This document shows, piece after piece, positions 4,162-61,314 of a stretch of 64,000 nt of DNA. The position numbers and the translations under genes were made by a program. This DNA is from Anadara kagoshimensis. Its lineage: Eukaryota; Mollusca; Bivalvia; Arcoida; Arcidae. How positions within the stretch are numbered: the stretch's first letter is position 1; each line of letters starts with the position of its first letter. The stretch covers positions 55,534,540 to 55,598,539 of the forward strand of contig CM037874.1 in assembly GCA_021292105.1 (NCBI GenBank), read 5' to 3'. Below the pieces are notes generated by a model. That model saw nothing but the letters and a program-made list of their open reading frames with translations. It ran no database searches and was not told the origin of the DNA.

Positions 4162-4445
4162 TCATCAGCTATAGCGAAGATGCATAAAGTTTGCCTGTGC
4201 GTTGCGCTGATGGCATAATACAGCAGGAATCTTTATCGTGCCACGGCTTCCATGACACGGGACCTCGTTTAATTCAAGTTCCAATCTAAAAGAACAGTGA
4301 CTTTCATTTCGTAAGACTGGGTGCTTGGCGAAAGAACAGTCACTACCCGCTTTCCAATCTTGGGTCATACCCTGTCGGGGTTCGAACCCATGACCTCCCG
4401 ATTACGAAGCGAGGACTCTACCAATGCAAGTGAGCTTCCGCAGTG
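4162..4445 (-). mobile_element. tRNA-derived SINE, lacking the extreme 3' end
   Basis: On the minus strand it opens with the tRNA-like head (CACTGCGGAAGCTCACTTG as decayed box A; GGGTTCGAACCCCGACAGGG as box B). The body with CTTTCGCCAAGCACCCAGT follows, ending at TATAGCTGATGACGAATC. The last ~60 bp seen in the 36-kb copy are missing. Confidence 0.85.
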
Positions 4446-6309: not shown

Positions 6310-6540
6310 CAAAAGTATACATATTACATATTATACCAGTTTTAATTTTACAGCACTAGACGGCCGTTTCAGAATACAATTCCTCATCAGAAGTGCTTGA
6401 ACAAAAATCAAATTTATTTCAAGATACCCTATAAATCAATATATATTTACCTTTAGCTAGGAAATACTTTGCATGAGGGAGTAGACTTAGTTTTTGTAGA
6501 TTTCAAATTTTAACTAGCAACAAATTTAGACATGAGTATA
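6310..6540 (-). mobile_element. Hammerhead-bearing module
   Basis: Reverse complement of the module described at 19980-20090 and 28900-29110. On the minus strand, sequence related to CTCCCTCATGCAAAGTATTTC and CTTGAAATAAATTTG leads into a hammerhead ribozyme, ending AAAACTGGTATAATATG. No coding frame. See the hammerhead entry for the fold. Confidence 0.8.
6352..6397 (-). ncRNA. Type I hammerhead ribozyme candidate, nearly intact
   Basis: Minus strand: CTGATGA core, stem II GGAAT-TGT-ATTCT (outermost pair G-T), GAAA core, short self-complementary stem III ACGGCCGT and a GTC cleavage triplet. Stem I is AGCACTT with TAGTGCT; the innermost pair is a T-T mismatch. The core residues are all present, so weak activity is possible. 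Confidence 0.75.
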
Positions 6541-7077
6541 TTTTCTTACAAAAATACATGAATATTGCAAACGTTTGTAATATCTTCGGGGAAACATCCA
6601 CCAGTAGAGATACCGGCTCAGTGGTTTTAAACCAAACAATGAATTAGTAAATGTCTTTTTTGATTATATAGTTAATATTTATTCACATACTGAACATTCC
6701 TTGTAGAATATAAGGCATGTTGTGATTGGGTGAAATCAGCCAATAGTAACCAATCATATATTATTTACAAGGCAAACATGAAAACGTTGCTTTGAATCAT
6801 GAGTTAGATGAATTTTTAACACCATTGCGTGTTAAATAACGTTTATAAAATTTAACAGTTTAGAATGGATTTTAAATTATATATAAAGGTATTAAAGTGT
6901 TTAACATATGATGATAATAGTCAATGTCCGTTATGTACAATGTCTGTCCTATTTTCCTCTCACGAATTTAATTTGTACCTAGAGTGTAAGCTGTATGTTT
7001 CATGCTGAAAATGTCAGATAGTTTAAAGTTTTGATAAATATATTTTATTTGGCTGAAATCAAGAGTTGATAATGACG
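6541..7077. other. No gene seen
   Basis: AT-rich spacer. A short block near 6580-6640 (ATATCTTCGGGGAAAC and AGAGATACCGGCTCAGTGGTT) is related to 14767-14820, so it is also repeat-derived. Confidence 0.5.
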
Positions 7078-14699: not shown

Positions 14700-14830
14700 C
14701 AATCAACAAAAATACCCAAAGGACCATAATATATTTAACCAAATTTACCCAAGGTAAATTTTATGATATCCTCGGAGATGCTTAGTCAACAAGCAGATAT
14801 ACCGGATTAGTGGTTTGAATCACACCAGAG
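14700..14830 (-). mobile_element. Fragment of the hammerhead-bearing module without the ribozyme
   Basis: AATACCCAAAGGACCATAAT, TTAACCAAATTTACCCAAGG resembles 41025-41075 in the minus-oriented module. The following ATATCCTCGGAGATGC and AGATATACCGGATTAGTGGTTT resembles 6580-6640. Confidence 0.55.
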
Positions 14831-16312: not shown

Positions 16313-17139
16313 AAAATGACAGAAGAAAATCAAGATTAAGAATGATATATAGCGTTATCTGTTTTTTGATGGTAAAAAATTCCAATTTCATTACATGGAA
16401 CCAAAATGAATTTTTACTAAGAACTGCTCTGAACTGATGATATAACCTTTTTGTTTCTGAAAACACGTTAAATAGTTGACTTCCTCGTAACTCAGTGGAT
16501 TTGATAGCTCATTGCTTAACAAATTGATACCTTCCAAAACAAATTTAAAGGATTTTTATTCACAAAGAAGGTCTTGAAATATGTCATAGATCAGATTTAT
16601 AACTGATAATGTAAACCCAATTTTGATTGATTGAAGATTTTAATCTAGTCGGTAACTTTAGAACTATAGAATTCTAAATACACCAAGGTGCATTATTTAA
16701 TATTAGCCTCTATTCAAATAGTAACACAATCCTTTACTAAATCATTTGCTTACCCACATCTGTTTCTCTTCTGCAACAAAACACGCGTTTCAGATGCCAT
16801 TTTTAACAGGTTTAGAATACCACTCTTTATCTATTGTATTACTTTGTAACAAAATATTTTAATCAAATTGATTTAATCTGTTTATATATTAATACTTTTT
16901 GTTTTATCCGAGACAGTCACACGTGTTTCTCATATTTTTAACAACAATTGATATTGATAGTAAACACTCGTGTTTAATAACACGTTGCTTTCCTCACGTT
17001 TCGTTTCTCGTCTTATTTATCTTCTTTAACTTATTTATCCCTGTTAACTGATCAGCGGTTACTACAATCACATTAAAAAAAGAGGAATCTCTTTTTGTAT
17101 TCCGAACTCTCTTGTCTACACAAACATGAACATTTGTTT
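16313..17139. other. No gene seen
   Basis: AT-rich spacer with no recognisable feature. Confidence 0.5.
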
Positions 17140-17330
17140 TAAATACTAAAAACCTCAGGTATATTCACCCAAGCAGAGTATTTCCTTAATGCAATTGTTT
17201 GATATACCTTTTGGATATTTTTAAACCCTTTGAAAAAAAAAGTTTAACAATTTTGGTCAAGACACTACTGATGAGGAATTTATTCCGAAACGGTGGTAAA
17301 CTGCTGTAAAATTGAAATTAGAATTGGTAT
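17140..17330 (+). mobile_element. Hammerhead-bearing module
   Basis: AAACCTCAGGTATATTCACC, CAGAGTATTTCCTTAATGCA and CCTTTTGGATATTTTTAAACC precede a decayed ribozyme; ends AATTAGAATTGGTATATGT. The same block order occurs at 28470-28640 and 28950-29120. Confidence 0.8.
17261..17306 (+). ncRNA. Decayed hammerhead ribozyme
   Basis: CTGATGA and CGAAAC core elements and the stem II halves GGAAT/ATTCC are present. The cleavage triplet has become GGT and stem I (GACACTA/AACTGCT) pairs poorly. Predicted inactive. Confidence 0.65.
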
Positions 17331-19525: not shown

Positions 19526-19979
19526 TACTTAGATATTTTCTGAGACTATTTTCATCCCCTTTGATCTTGTAATCTGTTTGTAAGCAGCAAAAGTTTGTTT
19601 TGTTTTCGTGGATACCAATTACACGTGTTTGTCTTTCAGTAACAAATGTTAAATTTGGGTGTCCTTAATTATGAATACAATTATCCACGCGATTATGATT
19701 TTAAGTTCTCTGTTGGATGGGGGTTGAAATTCAATATATGTGCGAATTCTTTATTGGTTTTACATGTTTTTGTTTTTTTTAGTCGAAAACAGTAGTACCA
19801 CAATGTCTGTAGAGCATAATTTTTAAAAAGTTAGTTTTTTTTTTATTTTTTGCCCACTTCTTCGGATAGGTCAGTAGCATAACTGCATGTATATGAAAGA
19901 GTAATGCAAAGAATAAATGCATGACACGCCAATGTGAAATAAGATTTATAACAATATATACATTTGTAGCTTTTCAACA
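19526..19979. other. No gene seen
   Basis: AT-rich spacer. Confidence 0.5.
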
Positions 19980-20090
19980 TCTTCAAAATAATTTTGGTTT
20001 CATAATTTTGGTCCAAGCGCTACTGATGAGGAATTGTATTCCGAAACGGCCGTCTAGTGCTGTAAATATAAAACTGGTATAATATGTATA
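19980..20090 (+). mobile_element. Hammerhead-bearing module, 5'-truncated
   Basis: TCAACATCTTCAAAATAATT and TTTTGGTCCAAGC lead into the ribozyme; it ends ATAAAACTGGTATAATATG. The upstream half of the module is absent. Confidence 0.85.
20016..20061 (+). ncRNA. Type I hammerhead ribozyme, intact fold
   Basis: Stem I pairs 20016-20022 (AGCGCTA) with 20055-20061 (TAGTGCT), seven pairs including one G-T. The CTGATGA core is 20023-20029. Stem II is GGAAT (20030-20034), loop TGT, ATTCC (20038-20042). GAA core is 20043-20045. Stem III is the 8-base palindrome ACGGCCGT (20046-20053), with cleavage expected after C20054 in the GTC triplet. The very short stem III is typical of hammerheads in Penelope-like elements and retrozymes, which are believed to act better as dimers. 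Self-cleavage is inferred from the fold, not shown. Confidence 0.88.
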
Positions 20091-26700: not shown

Positions 26701-26997
26701 GAATAAAAGAAGGTATTATTGATGTGATTGTAGTGGTATAAGTATTGTTATGTTCATGAATTGGTTAAGTCGTAATATAAGTAATGATATGCCTCTCGAC
26801 TCCTCTATACCCGATTAAATAACGTGTAAAAGTTTTGTCCCTTTCGGTTATAATCGAAACATTTGTTTTTATATAACCTTGCAATGACTTGCTGTATAGT
26901 TTAAAATGGAATAAGCAAACTTGCAAATGAAAATAAGTTTACAGCCAATACAACTAAGAATACGACACTAAACAATTACATGCAAAAGTGACCTTTA
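26701..26997. other. No gene seen
   Basis: AT-rich spacer before the tandem array. Confidence 0.5.
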
Positions 26998-27116
26998 AAA
27001 TGACACCCTAAATTCCTGCAAATCTTAAAAATTAAGAAAATTATAAAGATTTGAAATTTTGTCGGATTTAAGTTAAGGGAAAACTTAGTTAGGGAATGAT
27101 TTTGAAACTGGGATCA
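26998..27116 (+). mobile_element. MITE-F remnant (right half)
   Basis: AAAATTATAAAGATTTGAAA and GATTTAAGTTAAGGGAAAAC, TTAGGGAATGATTTTGAAAC match the right part of the intact element at 33817-34074. Confidence 0.7.
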
Positions 27117-27866
27117 AACAAACAACACATTTTAATTTAGACATCCGTTGAACATTTAAACATCAATGGATGATTTTTTTTTATAAAACATCTGACATGA
27201 CACATTTATTAAAATTTTAACATTCATCATGAGATAAATCTGCGAGTTTGTTTTTTTTCAAGAAAATATTTTTATTTCAATTAATGCTATGAATATTCAT
27301 GAAGTGAATATATAATTATTTATTAATATGTGATAAAAATACTTTTCAGACCAATAACCTATAGTAAAAGTGCAGTGTGTCATTGTCAGTAACAAATATT
27401 TTGTAGTGATTTTTTTTTCAGGTCATCATTATAATTAATCAATATTTTGTTTTTGTTTTTGTAAATCTTTCTGTTTTACATATAAAAAATATACATGTTG
27501 CTAACATATGTGAAATATATCTATGCATATTATCATATGTCCATTAGATGAACGACCTTATTGAAAGCACAAAGAACAAAGAAGAGTGCAGCCTGTCATT
27601 CTCTAAAAGAGGTTTTGACACATAAATATATCCTTGAAGATGTTCTCTGCCAGGGCTACTAAATATGGTCATAAAACGGTCTTTAGTATGCATTAGCAGC
27701 TGTATATTTAGGCTATCTGTAGAAATGTAATTTGAAAAACAACATGGGTGTTACATATGCTGTTTCTAAAAGTATGTAAAAGCAATAGTGCTCCAATTTA
27801 TTTTGATTTCAAAGATCTGTAATAAAGTTCAATGTTCATTTCGACAACTAAAAATATGATCCGAAG

Positions 27867-27987
27867 CACCCGGTCTCACTTCCCTGGTGGAAGTTAACGT
27901 ATCTAACCTAACTTGTCAGTTCTAAAGTTTTTCCTTTGCTTCTGGATTGTGATTCGGACGTGGATTAGTATGATTGTTTTTGATTTA
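27867..27987 (+). mobile_element. RT-tail 3' end inside tandem unit 1
   Basis: GAAGCACCCGGTCTCACTTC, TGGAAGTTAACGTATC, CGGACGTGGATTAGTATGAT, TGTTTTTGATTTAA. The same insertion with the same 5' and 3' junctions is present in unit 2 (30130-30258), so it predates unit duplication. Confidence 0.9.
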
Positions 27988-28223
27988 ATACAAATTTGAT
28001 TTTTTGTTTTTTTCAGTATCATTGGTCTTTTAGAATATTTTAGACCAAGTTTATGCTTCAGTTCTTAAAAGTCGGCATAAAAATTAATTATACATATGTT
28101 CCTTAAAACCTAAGGTATACACCCTCATGCTAAGTATTTCCTTTGCTTAATTTGTTAAAAACGTTTTGGTCTTTTAGATATCGTTTCAAACTTTTGAAGT
28201 AAAAAAATTATAAAGTTGGTCCA

Positions 28224-28269
28224 AGCATTACTGATGAGAAAGTGTTGTCCGAATCGGCCGTCAAGTGCT
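28224..28269 (+). ncRNA. Hammerhead ribozyme, mutated
   Basis: CTGATGA core, stem I AGCATTA/AAGTGCT (with mismatches), stem II weakened (GAAAG/TGTCC), GAAT in place of GAAA, GTC triplet kept. Activity doubtful. Confidence 0.65.
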
Positions 28270-28439
28270 GTAAAATTAAAACTGGTATATTTAATTTGGT
28301 AAGATGACAACTTGATTATAGTTTCTCCACTTTAAGTTTTTCTGTTACTTTTTACTTCTGGTAGGTGTAAAATTCAAACATGTAATTGTCAAATAATTCA
28401 AACATTACCTGGAATGTGTTTATAAGAAATATACTTTTG

Positions 28440-28640
28440 TCTAAATTTGCTGCTAGTTAGAATACAATAGTCATCAAAAACTCAGGTATACTCCCTCATG
28501 CAAAGTATTTCATTGACAAAATTTGGAAAAATATATTTTGGTCTTTTTGGTATTTTTTCAACATTTTTGGAAATATTTCGGTCTAAGAACTACTTATGAG
28601 GAAATGTATTTCGAAAAAGCTCTCTACTAAATGTGGAAAT
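28440..28640 (+). mobile_element. Hammerhead module, second decayed copy in unit 1
   Basis: AAAAACTCAGGTATACTCCC, TCATGCAAAGTATTTCATTG, TATATTTTGGTC precede CTTATGAGGAAATGTATTTC at 28593. The hammerhead (about 28586-28631) has a CTTATGA core and no GTC triplet, and is inactive. It joins directly to the block that starts partial unit B, marking an unequal-crossover junction. Confidence 0.7.
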
Positions 28641-28799
28641 ACAACGGTTATTAGTATGAATCAACAGCTGTATATTTAGGCCATCTGGAGAAATGTAATT
28701 TTTAAAACAGTATGAGTGTTACATATGCGGTTTTTAAAAGGAAATATATAAATTAAATCAGTAGTGCCTCAATTTCTTTTCATTCTTTAATATATCGCA

Positions 28800-29110
28800 A
28801 TAAAATTCAATGTTCATTTCTTAAACTCAAAATATGATTTGATACAATTTTGATCTTTGCTTTTTCAGTACAATTGGACTTCTAGAATGTTTTGGACAAA
28901 GATAATGCTTTGGTCGTTATAAAATTAATCATACACATGTTCCTCAAAACCTTAGGTATACTCCCTCATGCAAAGTATGTCCTTGGTTTAATTTGGTTAA
29001 AAATTTGGTCGTTCAAAATCTTGAAAAAAAAATAAATTTGGTCCAAGCACTACTAATGAGGATCTGTATTCCGAAACGGCTGTCTAGTGCTTTAAATTTA
29101 AAACTGGTAT
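28800..29110 (+). mobile_element. Hammerhead module, most complete copy
   Basis: Reads TTTTTCAGTACAATTGGACT, TTCTAGAATGTTTTGGAC, AAAACCTTAGGTATACTCCC, TCATGCAAAGTATGTCC, then a ribozyme and TAAAACTGGTATAATATGTG. The same order in unit 2 (30278-30545) defines the module's extent. Confidence 0.8.
29046..29091 (+). ncRNA. Hammerhead ribozyme with core G-to-A change
   Basis: Stem I AGCACTA/TAGTGCT is perfect, the GTC triplet and GAAAC are kept, but the core reads CTAATGA instead of CTGATGA and stem II is weakened (GGATC/ATTCC). The invariant G5 is lost, so it is predicted inactive. Confidence 0.8.
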
Positions 29111-29253
29111 AATATGTGATTGGTTTAAGGAAACGGTCTTCAAGATTCAATCAGAAACACGAACGTCACATACAATACAATATCTATTACTTATATAATA
29201 AATAGAGGAAAACATGCAACAGATTTGTATTTCGCAACAACAAACGCAAACAG

Positions 29254-29401
29254 ACTCTGGTTTAACAATCATTTCTTAGCTAAGGTTTTCTTTATCTTAA
29301 ATTTAACAAATTTTGGTTATCGTTTTTTTCTGAATTTGAAATTTGCCGGATTAAAGTTAAGAAAACTCTTAGCTAGGGAATGATCGTGAAATTGGGACCA
29401 G
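29254..29401 (+). mobile_element. MITE-F copy with internal deletion
   Basis: GGTTTAACAATCATTTCTTA on the left and AGCTAGGGAATGATCGTGAA on the right are the inverted ends. The centre is shorter than in 33817-34074. Confidence 0.8.
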
Positions 29402-30129
29402 GAATATAACACATTTTAATTTTTACATCTGTTGAACATTTTAACATCAATAAATAATTTTTGATGAAACATCTTACATGACACATTTTTAAAAGCTATC
29501 ATAATATAAATCTGTGAGTTTGTTTTTCTTTTTTTAAGAAAATATTTATATTTCATTTAATGTCATAAATATTTATCATTGAAACGTATATGATTATTAA
29601 TATATTTGACAAAAATATCTTTCAGACCAATGAACTATGTTAAAGGTACAGTGTGCCATTATCAGTAACAAATATTTTGTAGTGATGTCTTTTAATGTCA
29701 TTATTATAAGTAATCAATATTTTGTTTTTGTAAATCTTTTTGTTTTACATATCAAAAAATATACATGTTGCTAACATATGTGAAATATATCTATGCATAT
29801 TATCATATGTCCATTAGATGAACGACCTTATGGAAAGCACAAAAAACAAAGAAGAGTGCTGCCTGCCATTCTCTGAAAGAGGTTTTGACACATAAATATA
29901 TCCTTGAAGATGTTCTTTGCCAGAGCTACCACATATGGTCATAAAACGGTCTTTAGTATGCATTAGCAGCTGTATATTTAGACTATCTGTAGAACTGTAA
30001 TTTGAAAAACAACATGGGTGTTACATATGCTGTTTCTAAAAGTATATAAAAGCAATAGTGCTCCAATTTCTTTTGATTTTTAAAGATCTCTAATAAAGTT
30101 CGATGTTTATTTCGACAACTAAAATATGA

Positions 30130-30258
30130 TCCGGAGCACCCGGCCTCACTTCCCTGGTGGAAGTTTACGTGTCTAACCTAACTTGTCAGTTCCAAAGTTT
30201 TTACTTTGCATCTGGATTGTGAGTCGGACATAGATTAGTATGTTTGTTTTTGATTTAA
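30130..30258 (+). mobile_element. RT-tail 3' end inside tandem unit 2
   Basis: GGAGCACCCGGCCTCACTTC, TTACGTGTCTAACCTAACTT, CATCTGGATTGTGAGTCGGA, TATGTTTGTTTTTGATTTAA. Closer to the family consensus than the unit 1 copy. Confidence 0.9.
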
Positions 30259-30475
30259 TACAAATTTGATCTTTATTTTTTCAGTATCATTGGTCTTCTA
30301 GAATATTTTGGACCAAGATAATGCTTCAGTTCTTAAAAGTCGTCATAAAAATTAATTATACATATGTATACTCACTCGTGCTAACAATTTCCTTTGCTTA
30401 ATTTGTTAAAAAAAACATTTTGGTCTTTTAGATATCGTTTCAAAATTTGGAAGAAAAAATCATAAATTTGGTCCA

Positions 30476-30521
30476 AGCATTACTGATGAGGAATTGTTGT
30501 TCGAATCGGCCGTCAAGTGCT
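30476..30521 (+). ncRNA. Hammerhead ribozyme, mutated
   Basis: CTGATGA core and GTC triplet intact; stem I AGCATTA/AAGTGCT carries mismatches shared with 28224-28269; GAAT replaces GAAA. The shared changes show the two copies derive from one already-mutated unit. Confidence 0.7.
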
Positions 30522-30689
30522 GTAAAATTAAAACTGGTATAATATTTAAGAATCATTAGTTGAAGAAAACGGTCATCAAGAATCATTTAGAAACACGAAC
30601 GTCAAATACCATACGATATCTAGTTATTATGTGGTAGATAGAGGAAAACATGAAACATATTTGTACTTCGCAACAGCAAACACACTGTA

Positions 30690-30910
30690 CTTTAGCTAAG
30701 ATTTTCTTTATCCTATTTTTTAGAAAAATGGTAATCATTTTTAATAATAATAAATATTTCTGTCAAAACTTTTTAAATGTTTTATTCTAGGAGTCCCCTT
30801 AACAATAACATCTTAAATTCCTGAAAATCTTGAAAATTAAGAAAATTATAAAGATTTGAAATTTTGTCAAGGAAAATATTAGCTAAGGAATGATTCTTAA
30901 ACTGGAGCTC
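30690..30910 (+). mobile_element. MITE-F copy
   Basis: TTTAGCTAAGATTTTCTTTA on the left, TTAGCTAAGGAATGATTCTT on the right, with the internal block TCCTGAAAATCTTGAAAATT shared with 33817-34074 in the inverted sense. Confidence 0.75.
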
Positions 30911-31121
30911 GGAAAACAACAAATTTTATTTTTTACATCTGTTGGACAATGAATAATTTCTTTGATAAAACATTTGACATGGCACGTTTATTAACATTTT
31001 AACAGCCATCATGAGATAGATGTGCGAGTTTGCTTTTTTAAAGAAAATATTTTATGTCAATGTCATCAATATGTATGAAGTGAATGTATATAGAATAAAA
31101 ATATCTTTAAGACCAATAATC

Positions 31122-31485
31122 AAAAACAAACATACTAATCCATGTCCGAATCACAATCCAGAAGCAAAATAAAAACTTTGGAACTGACAAGTTAGGTTAG
31201 ACACGTGAACTTCCACCAGGGAAGTGAGGCCGGGTGGTCCGGAAGGGTAAGCACCTCCTGTTTAGCTAGCTACACCCGCCACGCGTGCAATCAAAATTGT
31301 GTGAAAGGAACATGGAACTATGAGACGTCAAATATATCCAGGGCAATCCTGGACACAGACACATCAAACTTATCAACAATACTGTGATGACAGCCATAAA
31401 ACTTTTTGAGGGCCTTGATAAGCCTAGGCTTGCAATATCCCTGAGTCAACATTTTATTTGCAAGCAGCCTACTTCGTTGTAAAAG
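31122..31485 (-). pseudogene. RT-tail insertion with readable RT C-terminus
   Basis: One of the best preserved copies. Minus strand reads LLANKM-type residues, then LSQGYCKPRLIKALKKFYG-like sequence (Cys in place of Arg after Gly), VDKFDVSVSRIALDIFDVS and a stop, followed by the full 3'UTR ending ATTAGTATGTTTGTTTTTGA. It interrupts tandem unit 3 between TCTTTAAGACCAATAA and AGTGCAGTGTGCCATTGTC, blocks that are adjacent in the other units. It is therefore younger than the array. Confidence 0.9.
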
Positions 31486-32119
31486 TGCAGTGTGCCATTG
31501 TCAGTGATAAATATTTTGTAGTTGTGATTTTAAAATCTTATGATACCTAGTTTTTCTTTTCTTTTTCTTTTTTGCAAAATCTTTCTGTTTTACATATCAT
31601 TAAATTATTATTTTATTATACATCTTGCTAACCTATGTGAAATATATCTATACATATTATCAAACGTCCTTGCGATCAACCACCTTAAGAACAGTTAAAC
31701 GAACAAAGACAAATGCAGTGTGTCATTGTCTCTTAAAAGAGGGTTGCAGATGTTCTTTACCAGAGCTATTAAATATGGACATAAAACAGTAATTAGTCTG
31801 CACTAGCAGCTGTATATTTAGGCTATCTGCAAAAATGTAATTTGAAAAACAGTATGGGTGTGACATATGATGTTTCTTAAAATATAAATACAAATTAAAC
31901 CAGTAGTGCTCCAATTTCTTTTGACTTTAAAAGATATTATAATAAAGTAAAACGTTCATTCTTAAAACTAAAATGTGATTTGATACAATTTTGATCTTTC
32001 CTTTTTTCAGTACTTTTGGTCTTCTAGAATATATTGGACAAAGGAAGGTCTTTTGTTTTTTAACCGACCGGTCCATGTTCACCTCACTATTTAAAGTAAA
32101 AATCAATAAAAGTGTCATT

Positions 32120-36022: not shown

Positions 36023-36363
36023 GATGAGTTGAGTAATGGTGTTTAACGTCCCAGTCAAGAATATTTCACTTATATCGAGACGTCGCCAGCTATAGGCGAA
36101 GGTGCAGAAATTGTGCCTGTGCGTTGCGCTGATGGCATTATACAGCAGGGTTCTTTATCGTGCCAATCCTATCAAGACACGGGACCTCCTTTATTTTAAG
36201 TTCCCATCGGAAAGAACCGTGACTTTCATTTCGTAATGCCGAGTGCTTGGCGAAAGAACAGTCACTACCCACTTTTAAGTCTTGGGTCAGACCCGGCCGG
36301 GGTTCGAACCCACGACCTCCCACTTACGGAGCGAGCACTCTACCAACTGAGCTACCGCAGTGG
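36023..36363 (-). mobile_element. tRNA-derived SINE, full length
   Basis: Minus strand: tRNA-like head with box A (GGTAGCTCAGTTGGTAGAG) and box B (GTGGGTTCGAACCCC), spaced as in a tRNA. The body follows with GACCCAAGACTTAAAAGTGG, CTTTCGCCAAGCACTCGGC and CCTGCTGTATAATGCCATCA. The 3' block ends AGCTGGCGACGTCTCGAT, CTTGACTGGGACGTTAAACA. The strongly conserved 3' block is typical of mollusc SINEs; the subfamily cannot be named safely. The promoter boxes look intact for RNA polymerase III. Confidence 0.92.
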
Positions 36364-38817: not shown

Positions 38818-39500
38818 CTGACAGAAATTTTGGATCAGCCTTGAAAAAAGTAATACCAAGCTAGAAACTAAAAAAAGAGATGATATCCCTTGCTTACAAG
38901 TAACCTTGATCAGTAAAAATAAAAAACAAAAAACAAATACATACCCAAGACACAATCTCAAAGCCAAACACAAACATACCAATGCATGTCCCAGCAACAA
39001 TCTCAAAGTCAAACACAAATTTACATTTACAAATTCATTTCGAAATACCAAGTCAAACGCAAACCTTCATCATCTGACAGACATTGTGGCTCCGCCTTCA
39101 GAAAAGTAATGCAAAGCTAGAAACTAGAAAAAGAGATCATATCTCTTGCTTACAAGTAACCTTGATCAGTAAAAATAAAAAAAAACCATACAAATCCGTG
39201 CTCAAATCACAATCCAACCCTAAAGCCAAACACAAACATACCAATCCATGTCCCAGCCACAATCCCAAAGTCAAATGCAAACATACCAATCCATGTCCAA
39301 GCCACAATCCCAAAGTCAAATACAAACATACAAATCCATGTCCAAGCCACAATCCCAAAGTCAAATACAAACATACCAATCCGTGTCCAAATCAAAACCC
39401 TAAAGCCAAACACAAACATAACAATTTATGTCCCAGCCACAATCCCATAGTCAAACACAATTTTACAAACCCATGTCCAAGCCACAATTCCAAAGCAGAG
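38818..39500 (+). repeat. 45-bp minisatellite derived from the RT-tail 3' end
   Basis: From 39196 about seven 45-bp units of the form AAAGTCAAATACAAACATAC, CAATCCATGTCCAAGCCACA, ATCCC. The consensus unit is the minus-strand RT-tail terminus (AACATACTAATCCATGTCC, ...CACAATCC). A shorter set of two or three units lies at 38930-39040. Each set follows a duplicated ~90-bp leader (AGAAACTAGAAAAAGAGATC, TTGCTTACAAGTAACCTTGA). Because 45 is divisible by three, the array is open in several frames and gives 15-residue repeats (KAKHKHTNPCPSHNP type). I do not regard this as a protein gene. Confidence 0.9.
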
Positions 39501-40374: not shown

Positions 40375-40710
40375 TGATCAAAAACAACCATACCTATCCA
40401 TGTTTAAATCACAATCAAACACTTTTAAGCTGGCAAATTAGGTTAAACACGTGAACTTCCACTGGAGAACTGAGGACCGGTTCTCCTGAAGGGAGTTGAA
40501 AAGCAGATGGAATTCCACAACTGTTATGTTTTGTTTCTCCGATATGAATATCTAAAATTGATTACAAATACCTCATGTATAATTTCACCGAAGAAGTGAG
40601 AACGGGTTTTCCTGAAGGACGTTAAAAAGCAGATGGAATCTCACAACTTTTGTGTTTTATTTCTCCGATATTAGTTTTTAAAATTTAGTATAAATAAACC
40701 CATGTATAAT
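40375..40710 (-). mobile_element. RT-tail 3' fragment with a 116-bp tandem duplication
   Basis: TGATCAAAAACAACCATACC, CATGTTTAAATCACAATC, ACGTGAACTTCCACTGGAGA. From 40458 the sequence with CCTGAAGGGAGTTGAAAAGC, AGATGGAAT and TTTCTCCGATAT is repeated at 40574-40690, with ~85 per cent similarity by eye. Confidence 0.75.
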
Positions 40711-40904
40711 TAATTAACATTGATTATTTATTTCTTCTGATTATTCTGTTTATAACAAGAATGCAGACAAAATCGATGATATAATCAACAAAAAAGTGTT
40801 TTCAATATCCTGAATTCTGTAAATAATTAAAACCTCAGCCTCAGTGTCGTCTGCTTTATAACGTAAAATTTTTTGTGTGATCTAGAGTGGGGGTAGTCAA
40901 CTAC

Positions 40905-41115
40905 ATATTATACCTGTTTCAATTTTACAGCACTGGACGGTCGTTTTGGAATACAATTCCTCATCAGTAGCACTTGGACTAAAATTATGAAACTGTTTTT
41001 TTTTTCAAGATGTTGAAAAGAGATACCCAAAGGACCAAAATATATTTTAACAAGTTTAGCTAAGGAAATACTTTACATGAGGGATTATACCTTAGTTTTT
41101 GAGGAATTTCAAATT
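40905..41115 (-). mobile_element. Hammerhead-bearing module
   Basis: Minus strand: AAAAACTAAGGTATAATCCC, TCATGTAAAGTATTTCCTTA, TTTTGGTCCTTTGGGTATC, TTCAACATCTTG, then a ribozyme and AAACAGGTATAATATG. Confidence 0.85.
40929..40974 (-). ncRNA. Decayed hammerhead ribozyme
   Basis: CTGATGA core, perfect stem II GGAAT/ATTCC and GTC triplet are kept. The GAAAC is AAAAC (G12 lost) and stem I (AGTGCTA/CAGTGCT) no longer pairs. Predicted inactive. Confidence 0.75.
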
Positions 41116-41924
41116 TTAAAAAGCATCAAAATGGACGAGCGAACATAATATCTTGCCTCATGTTAATCCTATATGGTAGCCAATATTTCAGCACTCATAA
41201 TACACACATTTGTAAATCATTGAACAATATCAATAATATCCAACGAAAATACATGTACACGCTATACCAAAAGGTCGCGCCTTTTTTATTTCAAGTTAGT
41301 TATACTGTAAGTATCTGACAAACACTCTGGAAGATTGTTCGCAATTATAGATCTTTCTACTTCAACAACTGATATAGAAAAACCATATAAAAATCCTGGC
41401 ACCTGATTTATAGATAGTTCTGTGATTATTACTATTTTTGGAATTTTGTCTAATTAACCATTCATTGTTCTATCAAGTTGTATCTTCAATTTCTCTTTTT
41501 CGTACATTTATTGCACTCATTTCCTGCTTGGACGTCTATTTTGGATGGCGTTGTCAGTGGTAATTTCCTATAAACGTCTTGGATATCAGAACTGATACCG
41601 ACTTTAATTGATCATATTCTTTATTTAGCGTGAGTATAATTGATTTTGTGATTGTAAAAGTGAGTTTATATCCGACAACTTGGACAAGGATAGTCCGTTA
41701 ACATTATAATTTTGTATGTTTCCTTCTGAGCGGATTTATCTTTTATTGTATGAGTTTTTCCGGCTTTTTGTTGAAAAATGATATTGTTTTTTCATATTTT
41801 TCCGGAATGAGCAATAAATTGGACATAGTAAATACTTGTTTGATATATAGAATCAGGAAATTACATGATAAAAAAGAGCCTTCGTGGCTAAGTGTCAAGA
41901 ACGCCTTTCTAGAGATTATCATTT
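41116..41924. other. No gene seen
   Basis: AT-rich spacer. Overlapping frames on both strands at 41743-42027 extend into an RT-tail copy and lack support. Confidence 0.5.
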
Positions 41925-51184: not shown

Positions 51185-51300
51185 GTTAATCTGTTAATTC
51201 TGCAGCACTAGACGGTCGGTACGAAATAAAATTCCTCATCAGAAGTGCTTAGACTAAAATAATAGAGATACAAATATTTTTAAGATGAAATGAGTAAAAT
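51185..51300 (-). mobile_element. Hammerhead module fragment with decayed ribozyme
   Basis: Minus strand: AAGCACTTCTGATGAGGAAT at 51231-51250, then a mutated stem II (TTTATTTCG), lost GAAA, and GACCGTCTAGTGCTGCAG. Stem I and the GTC triplet remain; the core is broken. Hammerhead span is about 51204-51250. Confidence 0.7.
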
Positions 51301-52503: not shown

Positions 52504-55500
52504 GACGGGTTGAAGGTAACAGAAGTGTAGACTTAGTCAACGGGTTGAAGGTAACAGACGTGTAGACTTAGTTGACGGGTTGAAGATAACAGACGTGCAG
52601 ACTTAGTTGACGGGTTGAAGGTAACAGAAGTACAGACTTAGTTGACGGGTTGAAGGTAACAGAAGTACAGACTTAGTTGACGGGTTGAAGGTAACAGACG
52701 TGTGGACTTAGTCAACGGGTTGAAGGTAACAGACGTACATACTTAGTCGACGGGTTGAAGGTAACAGACGTGCAGACTTAGTCGACGGGTTGAAGGTAAC
52801 AGAAGTACAGACTTAGTTGACGGGTTGAAGGTAACAGACGTGTGGACTTAGTCAACGGGTTCAAGGTAACAGACGTGTGGACTTAGTCAACGGGTTGAAG
52901 GTACCAGACGTGCAGACTTAGTTGACGGGTTGAAGGTAACAGACGTGCAGACTTAGTTGACGGGTTGAAGGTAACAGAAGTACAGACTTAGTTGACGGGT
53001 TGAAGGTAACAAACGTGCAGACTTAGTTGACGGGTTGAAGGTAACAGACGTACAGACTTAGTCGACGGGTTGAAGGTAACAGACGTGCAGACTTAGTCGA
53101 CGGGGTGAAGGTAACAGACGTGTAGACTTAGTCAACGGGTTGAAGGTAACAGACGTGTAGACTTAGTTGACGGGTTGAAGGTAACAGAAGTACAGACTTA
53201 GTTGACGGGTTGAAGGTAACAGAAGTGCAGACTTAGTCAACGGGTTGAAGGTAACAGAAATACAGACTTAGTCAACGGGTTGAAGGTAACAGAAGTACAG
53301 ACTTAGTCAACGGGTTGAAGGTAACAGAAGTACAGACTTAGTTGACGGGTTGAAGGTAACAGAAGTACAGACTTAGTTGACGGGTTGAAGGTAACAGAAG
53401 TGCAGACTTAGTCAACGGGTTGAAGGTAACAGAAATACAGACTTAGTTGACGGGTTGAAGGTAACAGACATGCAGACTTAGTTGACGGGTTGAATGTAAC
53501 AGAAGTACAGACTTAGTCAACGGGTTGAAGGTAACAGAAGTACAGACTTAGTCAACGGGTTGAAGGTAACAGAAATACAAACTTAGTTGACGGGTTGAAG
53601 GTAACAGAAATACAGACTTAGTCGACGGGTTGAATGTAACAGAAGTGCAGACTTAGTTGACGGGTTGAAGGTAACAGAAGTACAGACTTAGTTGACGGGT
53701 TGAAGGTAACAGAAGTACAGACTTAGTTGACGGGTTGAATGTAACAGAAGTACAGACTTAGTTGACGGGTTGAAGGTAACAGAAGTACAGACTTAGTCAA
53801 CGGGTTGAATGTAACAGAAGTACAGACTTAGTTGACGGGTTAAAGGTAACAGAAGTACAGACTTAGTTGACGGGTTAAAGGTAACAGAAGTACAGACTTA
53901 GTTGACGGGTTGAAGGTAACAGAAGTACAGACTTAGTCAACGGGTTGAATGTAACAGAAGTACAGACTTAGTTGACGGGTTAAAGGTAACAGAAGTACAG
54001 ACTTAGTTGACGGGTTGAATGTAACAGAAGTACAGACTTAGTCAACGGGTTGAAGGTAACAGAAATACAGACTTAGTCGACGGGTTGAAGGTAACAGACG
54101 TGCAGACTTAGTTGACGGGTTGAAGGTAACAGAAGTGCAGACTTAGTCGACGGGTTGAAGGTAACAGAAGTACAGACTTAGTCAACGAGTTGAAGGTAAC
54201 AGACGTGTAGACTTAGTCGACGGGTTGAAGGTAACAGAAGTACAGACTTAGTCGACGGGTTGAAGGTAACAGAAGTGCAGACTTAGTCGACGGGTTGAAG
54301 GTAACAGAAGTGCAGACTTAGTTGACGGGTTGAAGGTAACAGACATGCAGACTTAGTCGACGGGTTGAAGGTAACAGACATGCAGACTTAGTCGACGGGT
54401 TGAAGGTAACAGACGTGTAGACTTAGTTGACGGGTTGAAGGTAACAGAAGTACAGACTTAGTTGACGGGTTGAAGGTAACAGAAGTGCAGACTTAGTCAA
54501 CGGGTTGAAGGTAACAGAAATACAGACTTAGTCAACGGGTTGAAGGTAACAGAAGTACAGACTTAGTCAACGGGTTGAAGGTAACAGAAGTACAGACTTA
54601 GTTGACGGGTTGAAGGTAACAGAAGTACAGACTTAGTTGACGGGTTGAAGGTAACAGAAGTGCAGACTTAGTCAACGGGTTGAAGGTAACAGAAATACAG
54701 ACTTAGTTGACGGGTTGAAGGTAACAGACATGCAGACTTAGTTGACGGGTTGAATGTAACAGAAGTACAGACTTAGTCAACGGGTTGAAGGTAACAGAAG
54801 TACAGACTTAGTCAACGGGTTGAAGGTAACAGAAATACAAACTTAGTTGACGGGTTGAAGGTAACAGAAATACAGACTTAGTCGACGGGTTGAATGTAAC
54901 AGAAGTGCAGACTTAGTTGACGGGTTGAAGGTAACAGAAGTACAGACTTAGTTGACGGGTTGAAGGTAACAGAAGTACAGACTTAGTTGACGGGTTGAAT
55001 GTAACAGAAGTACAGACTTAGTTGACGGGTTGAAGGTAACAGAAGTACAGACTTAGTCAACGGGTTGAATGTAACAGAAGTACAGACTTAGTTGACGGGT
55101 TAAAGGTAACAGAAGTACAGACTTAGTTGACGGGTTAAAGGTAACAGAAGTACAGACTTAGTTGACGGGTTGAAGGTAACAGAAGTACAGACTTAGTCAA
55201 CGGGTTGAATGTAACAGAAGTACAGACTTAGTTGACGGGTTAAAGGTAACAGAAGTACAGACTTAGTTGACGGGTTGAATGTAACAGAAGTACAGACTTA
55301 GTCAACGGGTTGAAGGTAACAGAAATACAGACTTAGTCGACGGGTTGAAGGTAACAGACGTGCAGACTTAGTTGAGGGGTTGAAGGTAACAGAAGTGCAG
55401 ACTTAGTCGACGGGTTGAAGGTAACAGAAGTACAGACTTAGTCAACGAGTTGAAGGTAACAGACGTGTAGACTTAGTCGACGGGTTGAAGGTAACAGAAG

Positions 55501-56559
55501 TACAGACTTAGTCGACGGGTTGAAGGTAACAGAAGTGCAGACTTAGTCGACGGGTTGAAGGTAACAGAAGTGCAGACTTAGTCGACGGGTTGAAGGTAAC
55601 AGAAGTACAGACTTAGTCAACGGGTTGAAGGTAACAGAAATACAGACTTAGTTGACGGGTTGAAGGTAACAGACATGCAGACTTAGTCGACGGGTTGAAG
55701 GTAACAGACATGCAGACTTAGTCGACGGGTTGAAGGTAACAGACGTGTAGACTTAGTCGACGGGTTGAAGGTAACAGAAATACAGACTTAGTCAACGGGT
55801 TGAAGGTAACAGACATGCAGACTTAGTCGACGGGTTAAAGGTAACAGACGTGTAGACTTAGTCGACGGGTTGAAGGTAACAGAAATACAGACTTAGTTGA
55901 CGGGTTGAAGGTAACAGACATGCAGACTTAGTCGACGGGTTGAAGGTAACAGACATGCAGACTTAGTCGACGGGTTGAAGGTAACAGACGTGTAGACTTA
56001 GTCGACGGGTTGAAGGTAACAGAAATACAGACTTAGTCAACGGGTTGAAGGTAACAGACATGCAGACTTAGTCGACGGGTTGAAGGTAACAGACGTGTAG
56101 ACTTAGTCAACGGGTTGAAGGTAACAGAAGTACAGACTTAGTCAACGGGATGAAGGTAACAGACGTGTAGACTTAGTTGACGGGTTGAAGGTAACAGAAA
56201 TACAGACTTAGTCGACGGGTTGAAGGTAACAGAAATACAGAATTAGTCGACGGGTTGAAGGTAACAGACGTGTAGACTTAGTTGACGGGTTGAAGGTAAC
56301 AGAAGTACAGACTTAGTCAACGGGTTGAAGGTAACAGAAGTACAGACTTAGTCAACGGGTTGAAGGTAACAGACGTGCAGACTTAGTCAACGGGTTGAAG
56401 GTAACAGACGTGCAGACTTAGTCAACGGGTTGAAGGTAACAGAAATACAGACTTAGTCAACGGGTTGAAGGTAACAGACGTGCAGACTTAGTCGACGGGT
56501 TGAAGGTAACAGACGTGCAGAATTAGTCGATGGGTTGAAGGTAACAGACGTGCAGACTT
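52504..56559 (+). repeat. 35-bp satellite array, 116 monomers
   Basis: Monomer: GACGGGTTGAAGGTAACAGA, then (C/A)(G/A)T(G/A)(C/T/G)(A/G)GACTTAGT(C/T)(G/A)A-type end. The distance between the first and last GA(C/T)GGGTTG (52504 and 56529) is 4025 bp, exactly 115 x 35, so there is no net indel in 4 kb. Variation is concentrated at two spots per monomer. The segment 53135-54322 recurs at 54395-55582 (offset 1260 bp, 36 monomers) with one difference (54116 C versus 55376 G). A 7-monomer (245-bp) repeat spans about 55660-56100. Stops (TAG) occur and 35 is not divisible by three, so it is non-coding. Confidence 0.98.
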
Positions 56560-58269: not shown

Positions 58270-58694
58270 GATGCTAAAACAATCAATCGAATCGGGTCAT
58301 TTTTCTGATTTATTCCCATTTTGCATTATTATATTGTTTCGCAGACCAAAGTTTACTATTAGCAAATCTTGATTGTAAATAAGTTGCACTAAAAAGGCCG
58401 AGTTACTACTATGCTCAAAACATTGACTGAAATAGGGCCCTTTTTCTGATTTATTCTCTTTTTGCATTATTATATCGTTTGCAAACCAAAGTTTACGTCA
58501 AGCAAATCTTGTTTGTGAACGTGTTGCACTTAAAAAGGCCAAGTTACTGCTAAGCTCAAAACAGTCATTGAAATAGGGCATTTTTCTGATTTATTCCCAT
58601 TTTGCATAATAATATCATTTCGCAGACCAAAGTTTACTTATATTAAATCTTGATTATAAACGTGTTGCACTCAAAAGGCCGAGTTACTTACTTA
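58270..58694 (+). repeat. ~140-bp tandem repeat, three units
   Basis: Units begin about 58277, 58417 and 58555 with CAAT(C/G)-TGAAATAGGGC-like sequence, then TTTTTCTGATTTATTCCCAT, TTTGCATTATTATAT, CGCAGACCAAAGTTTAC, GTTGCACTAAAAAGGCCGAG. Divergence ~10-15 per cent by eye. Confidence 0.9.
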
Positions 58695-60987: not shown

Positions 60988-61314
60988 CTGCGGTAGCTCA
61001 GTTGATAAAGAGCTCGCCGTAAGTGCTAGGTCGTGGGTTCGAACCCCGACCGAATCTGACCCAAGACTTGAAAGTTGGTAGTGACTGTTCTTTCGCCAAG
61101 CACTCGGTATTACGAAATGAAAGACGCGGTTCTTTCAGATGAACTAAAAATAAACGAGGTCCTGTGTCTTGGTAGGCTTGGCACGGTAAAGAACCCTGCT
61201 GTATACTGCCATCAGCGCAACGCACTGACAAAAATCCCGCACCTTCGCCTTTAGCTGGCGACGTCTCGATATAAGTGAATATTCTTGACTGGGACGCTAA
61301 ACACCATTACTCAT
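60988..61314 (+). mobile_element. tRNA-derived SINE, full length
   Basis: CTGCGGTAGCTCAGTTGATA as box A region, GGTCGTGGGTTCGAACCCCG as box B. Then GACCCAAGACTTGAAAGTTG, TCTTTCGCCAAGCACTCGGT, AACCCTGCTGTATACTGCCA, and the 3' block TAGCTGGCGACGTCTCGATA, TTGACTGGGACGCTAAACAC. Colinear with 36023-36363 over its entire length. Confidence 0.93.

Follow-up and report, generated by a model that had tools for sequence, protein, structure and literature searches.

A truncated hammerhead-bearing repeat in the genome of Anadara kagoshimensis, probably a copy of a non-autonomous retrozyme

The window analysed here, 64,000 nucleotides (nt) of contig CM037874.1 (assembly GCA_021292105.1) from the bivalve Anadara kagoshimensis, carries on its forward strand a type I hammerhead ribozyme motif at positions 20016–20061. 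The 5′ strand of stem I (AGCGCTA, 20016–20022) is followed by the core CTGATGA (20023–20029), stem–loop II (GGAAT-TGT-ATTCC, 20030–20042), GAA (20043–20045), the palindromic stem III ACGGCCGT (20046–20053), the C17 nucleotide (C 20054) and the 3′ strand of stem I (TAGTGCT, 20055–20061). Stem I consists of seven pairs, one G–U among them, and stem II of five. A sequence-only reading of the window had found all conserved parts of a type I hammerhead in correct pairing and had placed the cut after 20054; the letters bear out both points, with the G–U pair counted as part of stem I. Judged from its letters and from the descriptor given below, the motif is real and complete, and cleavage after 20054 is predicted.

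The core pattern TGATGA-N4–30-GAAACGNNCGTC occurs at two places in the window (20024, forward; 6389, reverse) and in none of 100 shuffles. A stem-aware descriptor, which adds to this pattern at least five pairs in stem I and at least three in stem II, finds 20016–20061 as the sole place in the window and nothing in the reversed window; over loci L009–L092 of the same genome it finds 64 places, and none in the reversed sequences. In an energy model that excludes junction and tertiary terms, an alternative fold of the 46-mer reaches −11.9 kcal/mol, against −7.4 kcal/mol for the hammerhead fold, and the 46-mer folds barely better than its shuffles (z = −1.26). Across 82 copies (80 of 89 distinct stretches, the other nine being near duplicates or differing in core length, together with two window copies), 91.2% of cells pair, compared with 90.8% in shuffles. 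Covariation over these copies did not rise above that of shuffles; 80 of them had been picked by an exact core, so that stem III could hardly vary, and the lack of excess covariation is what copies in neutral decay should show. An outer helix of stem I (TAATTTT/AAAATTA), in which 83.5% of cells pair over the same 82 copies, is offered as a proposal only; its 3′ strand is altered in the window copy at 20016–20061.

Rfam searches of the whole window returned nothing above the gathering score and no hammerhead even at E values of up to 10, and the Hammerhead_1 model (RF00163) gave 17.9 bits (E = 0.036; gathering score, 34) on a 101-nt stretch. The sequence-only reading had staked the motif on a score above this threshold, which was not reached; the test proved a poor one. 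The exact 44-mer of the window motif stands three times in locus L009 and twice in L010, in tandem, and at E values of up to 10 no hammerhead was reported in these two loci or in four others. As Rfam is also silent on those tandem copies, its miss in the window is a failure of the model and carries little meaning. The core and stem III (GAAACG..CGUC) do align to RF00163, and no gap interrupts the match of ACGGCCGT to the type I consensus of stem III. The motif is not the minimal variant that PMC7761336 describes for Penelope-like elements, which has no helix III; on this point our reading differs from the sequence-only one, which had spoken of minimal stem III hammerheads.

The motif lies within a solo copy of 123 nt at 19966–20088 (forward), which matches positions 250–339 and 0–34 of a natural 339-nt monomer from L010, numbered from the cleavage site, at 97.6% identity. 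It closes with GGTATAATATGTA (20076–20088), the usual 3′ end of family copies and the presumed start of reverse transcription. Since this truncated copy holds a single ribozyme, release of a unit by two cuts is not possible from it. The dispersed repeat with nine window copies, as first described, was recovered in full, together with a 45-nt monomer fragment without a ribozyme (14713–14757, reverse), and the copy at 19966–20088 is indeed the best preserved and the only one to pass the descriptor. A second copy with an intact core (6323–6630, reverse; core at 6390) has a G–U pair closing stem II and a U–U in stem I beside the core. The core is changed in the copies at 40899–41119 (reverse; G to A in GAA), 17137–17317 (forward) and 51194–51287 (reverse), and in four forward-strand copies in an array at 26.9–32.0 kb: 28099–28289 (ribozyme 28231), 28425–28616 (ribozyme 28593, strongly diverged), 28940–29121 (ribozyme 29053) and 30366–30549 (ribozyme 30483). 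Two of the nine cores are therefore intact (20023, forward; 6390, reverse), against approximately 1.9 expected from the divergence of each copy outside the core (intactness was scored over 13 positions against a yardstick assembled by eye, and the expectation is the sum of nine probabilities). Two intact cores among nine are thus what neutral decay predicts.

The array itself (26900–32050) is an irregular tandem series of blocks with four decayed copies, with about 1.43 kb between ribozymes 29053 and 30483. We considered it as a retrozyme multimer and rejected it, as its blocks share sequence well beyond the monomer and have an abundant repeat nested inside. The copies with ribozymes 29053 and 30483 have long flanks in common on both sides, and 28231 shares those on the 5′ side; from these flanks the four copies look like duplicates of older insertions, a description that 28593 fits less clearly. 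The window is rich in other repeats. A 363-nt repeat (31118–31480) has around 50 full or partial matches across it and is also nested in the ribozyme array; approximately 116 copies of a 35-bp tandem repeat occupy 52504–56559, where GC skew is strong; and further tandem arrays lie at 39215–39495 (45 bp), 40466–40711 (126 bp) and 58276–58688 (141 bp). A tRNA-like match at 36294–36357 (reverse; 30.6 bits, gathering score 29) falls within a repeat shared with 61017–61279, of which 61018–61140 matches 4284–4406; this tRNA-like repeat is perhaps a tRNA-derived SINE.

In the 1.115-Gb genome that was searched, which includes the window, there are 24 exact copies of the 44-mer (control, 0) and 7,124 exact matches to the core pattern (reversed control, 0); the Rfam type I model can thus miss a family with thousands of such matches in one genome. 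Relatives of the window copy form tandem arrays of 285 nt × 2.9 copies (L009, contig C18) and 339 nt × 2.3 copies (L010, contig C15), each with 98% matches, and an array of five units (L029, contig C1). Among the 100 core-pattern places listed, spacings of 325–378 nt also occur. One monomer, with a GC content of 34.5%, has no stop-free stretch longer than 49 codons in any of the six frames. From these data the family is best described as a predicted AT-rich non-coding RNA of approximately 285–378 nt, each unit carrying a single type I hammerhead. Arrays built of 285- and 339-nt units follow the retrozyme pattern, and the link to retrozymes that had been drawn from the window alone holds. A mussel, which the sequence-only reading had named as the host, found no support: the genome has no match to the stem II sequence that we take to be that of Mytilus, a genus that presumably has a repeat with a similar backbone. 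Myosin exons in the genome mark the host as an animal; one of them matches muscle myosins, and its two top-ranked entries, presumably from sea scallop, are hardly ahead of the human ones. Neither the ribozyme nor the monomer backbone had a match in viral_contigs or genome_contigs. Several pairs of copies at different places on the same contig have near-identical flanks (L025/L026, L027/L028, L043/L045, L046/L050 and L068/L069); such pairs are either segmental duplicates or products of assembly doubling.

We mapped 85 sequences onto the L010 monomer: the 20 loci with the other 23 exact 44-mers (L009–L028), 60 regions with every listed core-pattern place up to 8.81 Mb of C1 (L029–L088) and five window copies, namely all nine except those in the array. 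This yielded 108 pieces, at most four per sequence. Their 3′ ends are concentrated at monomer positions 35–42, that is, 35–42 nt past the cleavage site (81 of 108 pieces; 2.5 expected per 8-nt stretch). The concentration persists when pieces with similar 3′ flanks are dropped (74 of 99), and it is stronger still among the best pieces, the flank-filtered ones with at least 93% identity (35 of 41). By contrast, 5′ ends are spread, the densest 8-nt stretch holding 10 of 108 and 8 of 99. Twenty-seven of the 108 pieces end outside 35–42; among the 41 best, six do so, at 27, 33, 34 (the window copy), 189, 289 and 325. L046 and L050, whose flanks are in common, both end at 27. The sample was picked for an intact ribozyme and so misses copies shorter than about 69 nt; such selection cannot create a fixed 3′ end. 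Fixed 3′ ends with spread 5′ ends point to reverse transcription from one site.

The 5′ ends also bear on the form of the template. Within 4 nt of the cleavage site no 5′ end is found among the 99 pieces, and in the full set of 108 only one is (L083, at monomer position 1), where it abuts another retrozyme piece. The exact 36-nt 3′ tail occurs 2,815 times in the genome, 2,106 times with CCGTC before the cleavage site. We read 20 of the 709 tails that lack CCGTC, namely all but two (8478727 and 16033973) of the 22 such places counted up to 18.2 Mb on C1. Nineteen have retrozyme sequence upstream, changed or with deletions (two, L103 and L107, without a ribozyme), and in the remaining one, L111, the leading unit of a dimer begins exactly at the cleavage site. 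Copies would begin at the cleavage site if the template were a linear RNA with its 5′ end there; 19 of 20 do not, and this points to RNA continuous across the cut, either a circle or an uncleaved multimer, as the probable source of nearly all sampled copies.

Target-site duplications are weak: 22 of 84 score at least 7, compared with 11.8 expected, and 4 score at least 9, compared with 1.4 expected; one duplication, of 22 nt at L034, is clear. The flanks of the copies are 69–74% AT, near the level of the window. Among the literature search results we found no description of a fixed 3′ end for any animal retrozyme, though one may be in print elsewhere; in the portions of PMC7229834 consulted, neither a fixed 3′ end nor 5′ truncation is described.

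Taken together, we consider it probable (approximately 0.8) that 19966–20088 is a non-autonomous animal retrozyme that was truncated at its 5′ end and dead on arrival, from a family that would cycle through RNA circles and a borrowed reverse transcriptase. It is unremarkable within a known class of elements: a truncated copy from a family that we have not matched to a named one. In the cycle that we propose, tandem arrays would be transcribed into multimers, and each hammerhead would cut the multimer, either on its own or after pairing with an adjacent one via its palindromic stem III. A host ligase would then close the units into circles, and the reverse transcriptase of some autonomous element would be recruited to begin copying at the fixed site approximately 37 nt past the cleavage site, presumably primed by nicked target DNA, and run towards the 5′ end. 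An early stop would leave solo truncated copies such as 19966–20088, and more than one round would leave tandem arrays.

How far the copy ends record integration is a separate question. Somewhat short of an even chance, in our view, is the full scheme in which a Penelope-like or LINE-like enzyme starts copying at the fixed site (about 37 nt beyond the cut), with the template closed at that cut, and by rounding a ribozyme-made circle leaves truncated solo copies or homogeneous arrays. In three arrays (L009, L010 and L029) mean divergence between units is 1.1–1.8%, and the nearest sampled unit outside lies at 2.9–3.5%; the comparison covers 19 units only, and nearer outside units may exist. Such homogeneity within an array is what repeated passage round a single circle should produce. 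In three others (L052, L084 and L085) units are more unlike each other than they are unlike the nearest outside unit, a pattern in keeping with a linear multimeric template or with age.

The template could instead have been linear, a tandem-array transcript that was left uncleaved, with the hammerhead not needed for insertion. Support comes from the Penelope-like element of Anolis, for which ribozyme mutants left insertion in vitro unchanged and reverse transcription was initiated internally, at a point downstream of the ribozyme (PMC11167929), and from the three of six arrays that are not homogeneous. We nevertheless regard a linear template as rather unlikely. The three regular arrays are homogeneous, if only relative to the few outside units sampled; source arrays appear to be a minority, with 32 of the 41 best pieces spanning one unit or less and 9 spanning more; and the core is kept in thousands of copies, though youth alone could account for that.

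An element of this kind, with circles or without, would need an enzyme from elsewhere, and the partner may be a Penelope-like element or a LINE. The genome contains at least 50 GIY-YIG matches (150 of 248 candidates were scored). Four such loci (L089–L092) gave no ribozyme by pattern, descriptor or Rfam, and two more (L113 and L114), searched with the loose pattern alone, gave none except for one L114 match, found on both strands and by eye without a stem II; homology to the monomer was absent from all six. L089, L090, L091 and L092 have open frames of up to 762 codons and within-locus repeats of approximately 0.5–1 kb, direct or inverted. These results weigh against the idea that the repeat is a pseudo-LTR fragment of an autonomous Penelope-like element and not a retrozyme. 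In its favour, type I hammerheads and tandem copies are known from Penelope-like elements (PMC7761336; PMC11167929), and the genome has the GIY-YIG matches just given. Arrays of a 285- or 339-nt unit without a reading frame speak against such a fragment, however, and the six GIY-YIG loci sampled from many show neither ribozyme nor monomer homology; we consider this origin improbable.

Still less probable is a satellite that spreads as DNA, through excised circles or unequal crossing-over, with the hammerhead as a passenger. It would account for tandem arrays of homogeneous units, but both ends of its copies would scatter, whereas 81 of 108 pieces share a fixed 3′ end and it is the 5′ end that varies, a combination that favours a single internal start over DNA circles. 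We give the least credence of all to selection on the motif at 20016–20061 for a host function: it is complete and the sole one in the window by the descriptor, but intact cores are as frequent among the nine copies as divergence predicts, and neither the 44-mer (24 exact occurrences) nor the core pattern (7,124) is peculiar to this place in the genome.

The retrozyme reading, to which we return, places the family beside several known systems. Closest are the metazoan non-LTR retrozymes of Mytilus galloprovincialis, Acropora and the axolotl (Cervera and de la Peña 2020, PMC7229834), which, as outlined in the sections of that paper used here, are tandem repeats of 150–450 bp with a GC content below 50%, and which share with the present family a type I hammerhead, non-coding tandem units, low GC content and thousands of copies. 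The family has each of these traits (an intact-core type I hammerhead, tandem units within 150–450 bp and non-coding sequence with less than 50% GC), the window copy itself being solo. Metazoan retrozymes are further characterized by the lack of LTRs, a primer binding site and a polypurine tract, by target-site duplications that, when present, exceed 4 bp, and by unit-length RNA in both linear and circular form. M. galloprovincialis has, by the same partial account, approximately 5,000 type I hammerheads, usually in repeats of 350–390 bp, and abundant circular RNA on Northern blots (PMC7229834); the units here are 285 or 339 nt long, and the two are compared by description, ours from genomic DNA alone.

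Plant LTR retrozymes (PMC4918200) are more distant. Like the family described here they are non-autonomous and hammerhead-bearing, with circular RNA in their cycle (a stage that we propose for the present family); they differ in having type III hammerheads, LTRs, a primer binding site and approximately 700 bp between hammerheads, as summarized in passages of PMC7761336 and PMC7229834. Penelope-like elements have a minimal hammerhead variant without helix III in the part of PMC7761336 that treats them, whereas stem III (ACGGCCGT) is present here. A frame for reverse transcriptase and GIY-YIG, by which a Penelope-like element would be recognized, is found neither in the monomer, with its stop-free stretches of at most 49 codons, nor in the window copy of only 123 nt. 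Poseidon of Anolis nonetheless resembles the family in layout, with a ribozyme followed by a fixed internal start: its start lies 111–118 bp into the reading frame and its ribozyme cut at 26 (PMC11167929), a distance of about 85–92 nt past the cut, compared with 35–42 nt here. We read this by analogy as a likeness and not as membership; the unit here has a stem III and no reading frame. For animal retrozymes, which are known as circular RNAs, the candidate sources of the enzyme are LINEs or Penelope-like elements, with target DNA or a small RNA as the primer (PMC7229834); for the question of how such RNAs enter the genome, the fixed 3′ end of this family offers a concrete site for in vitro work.
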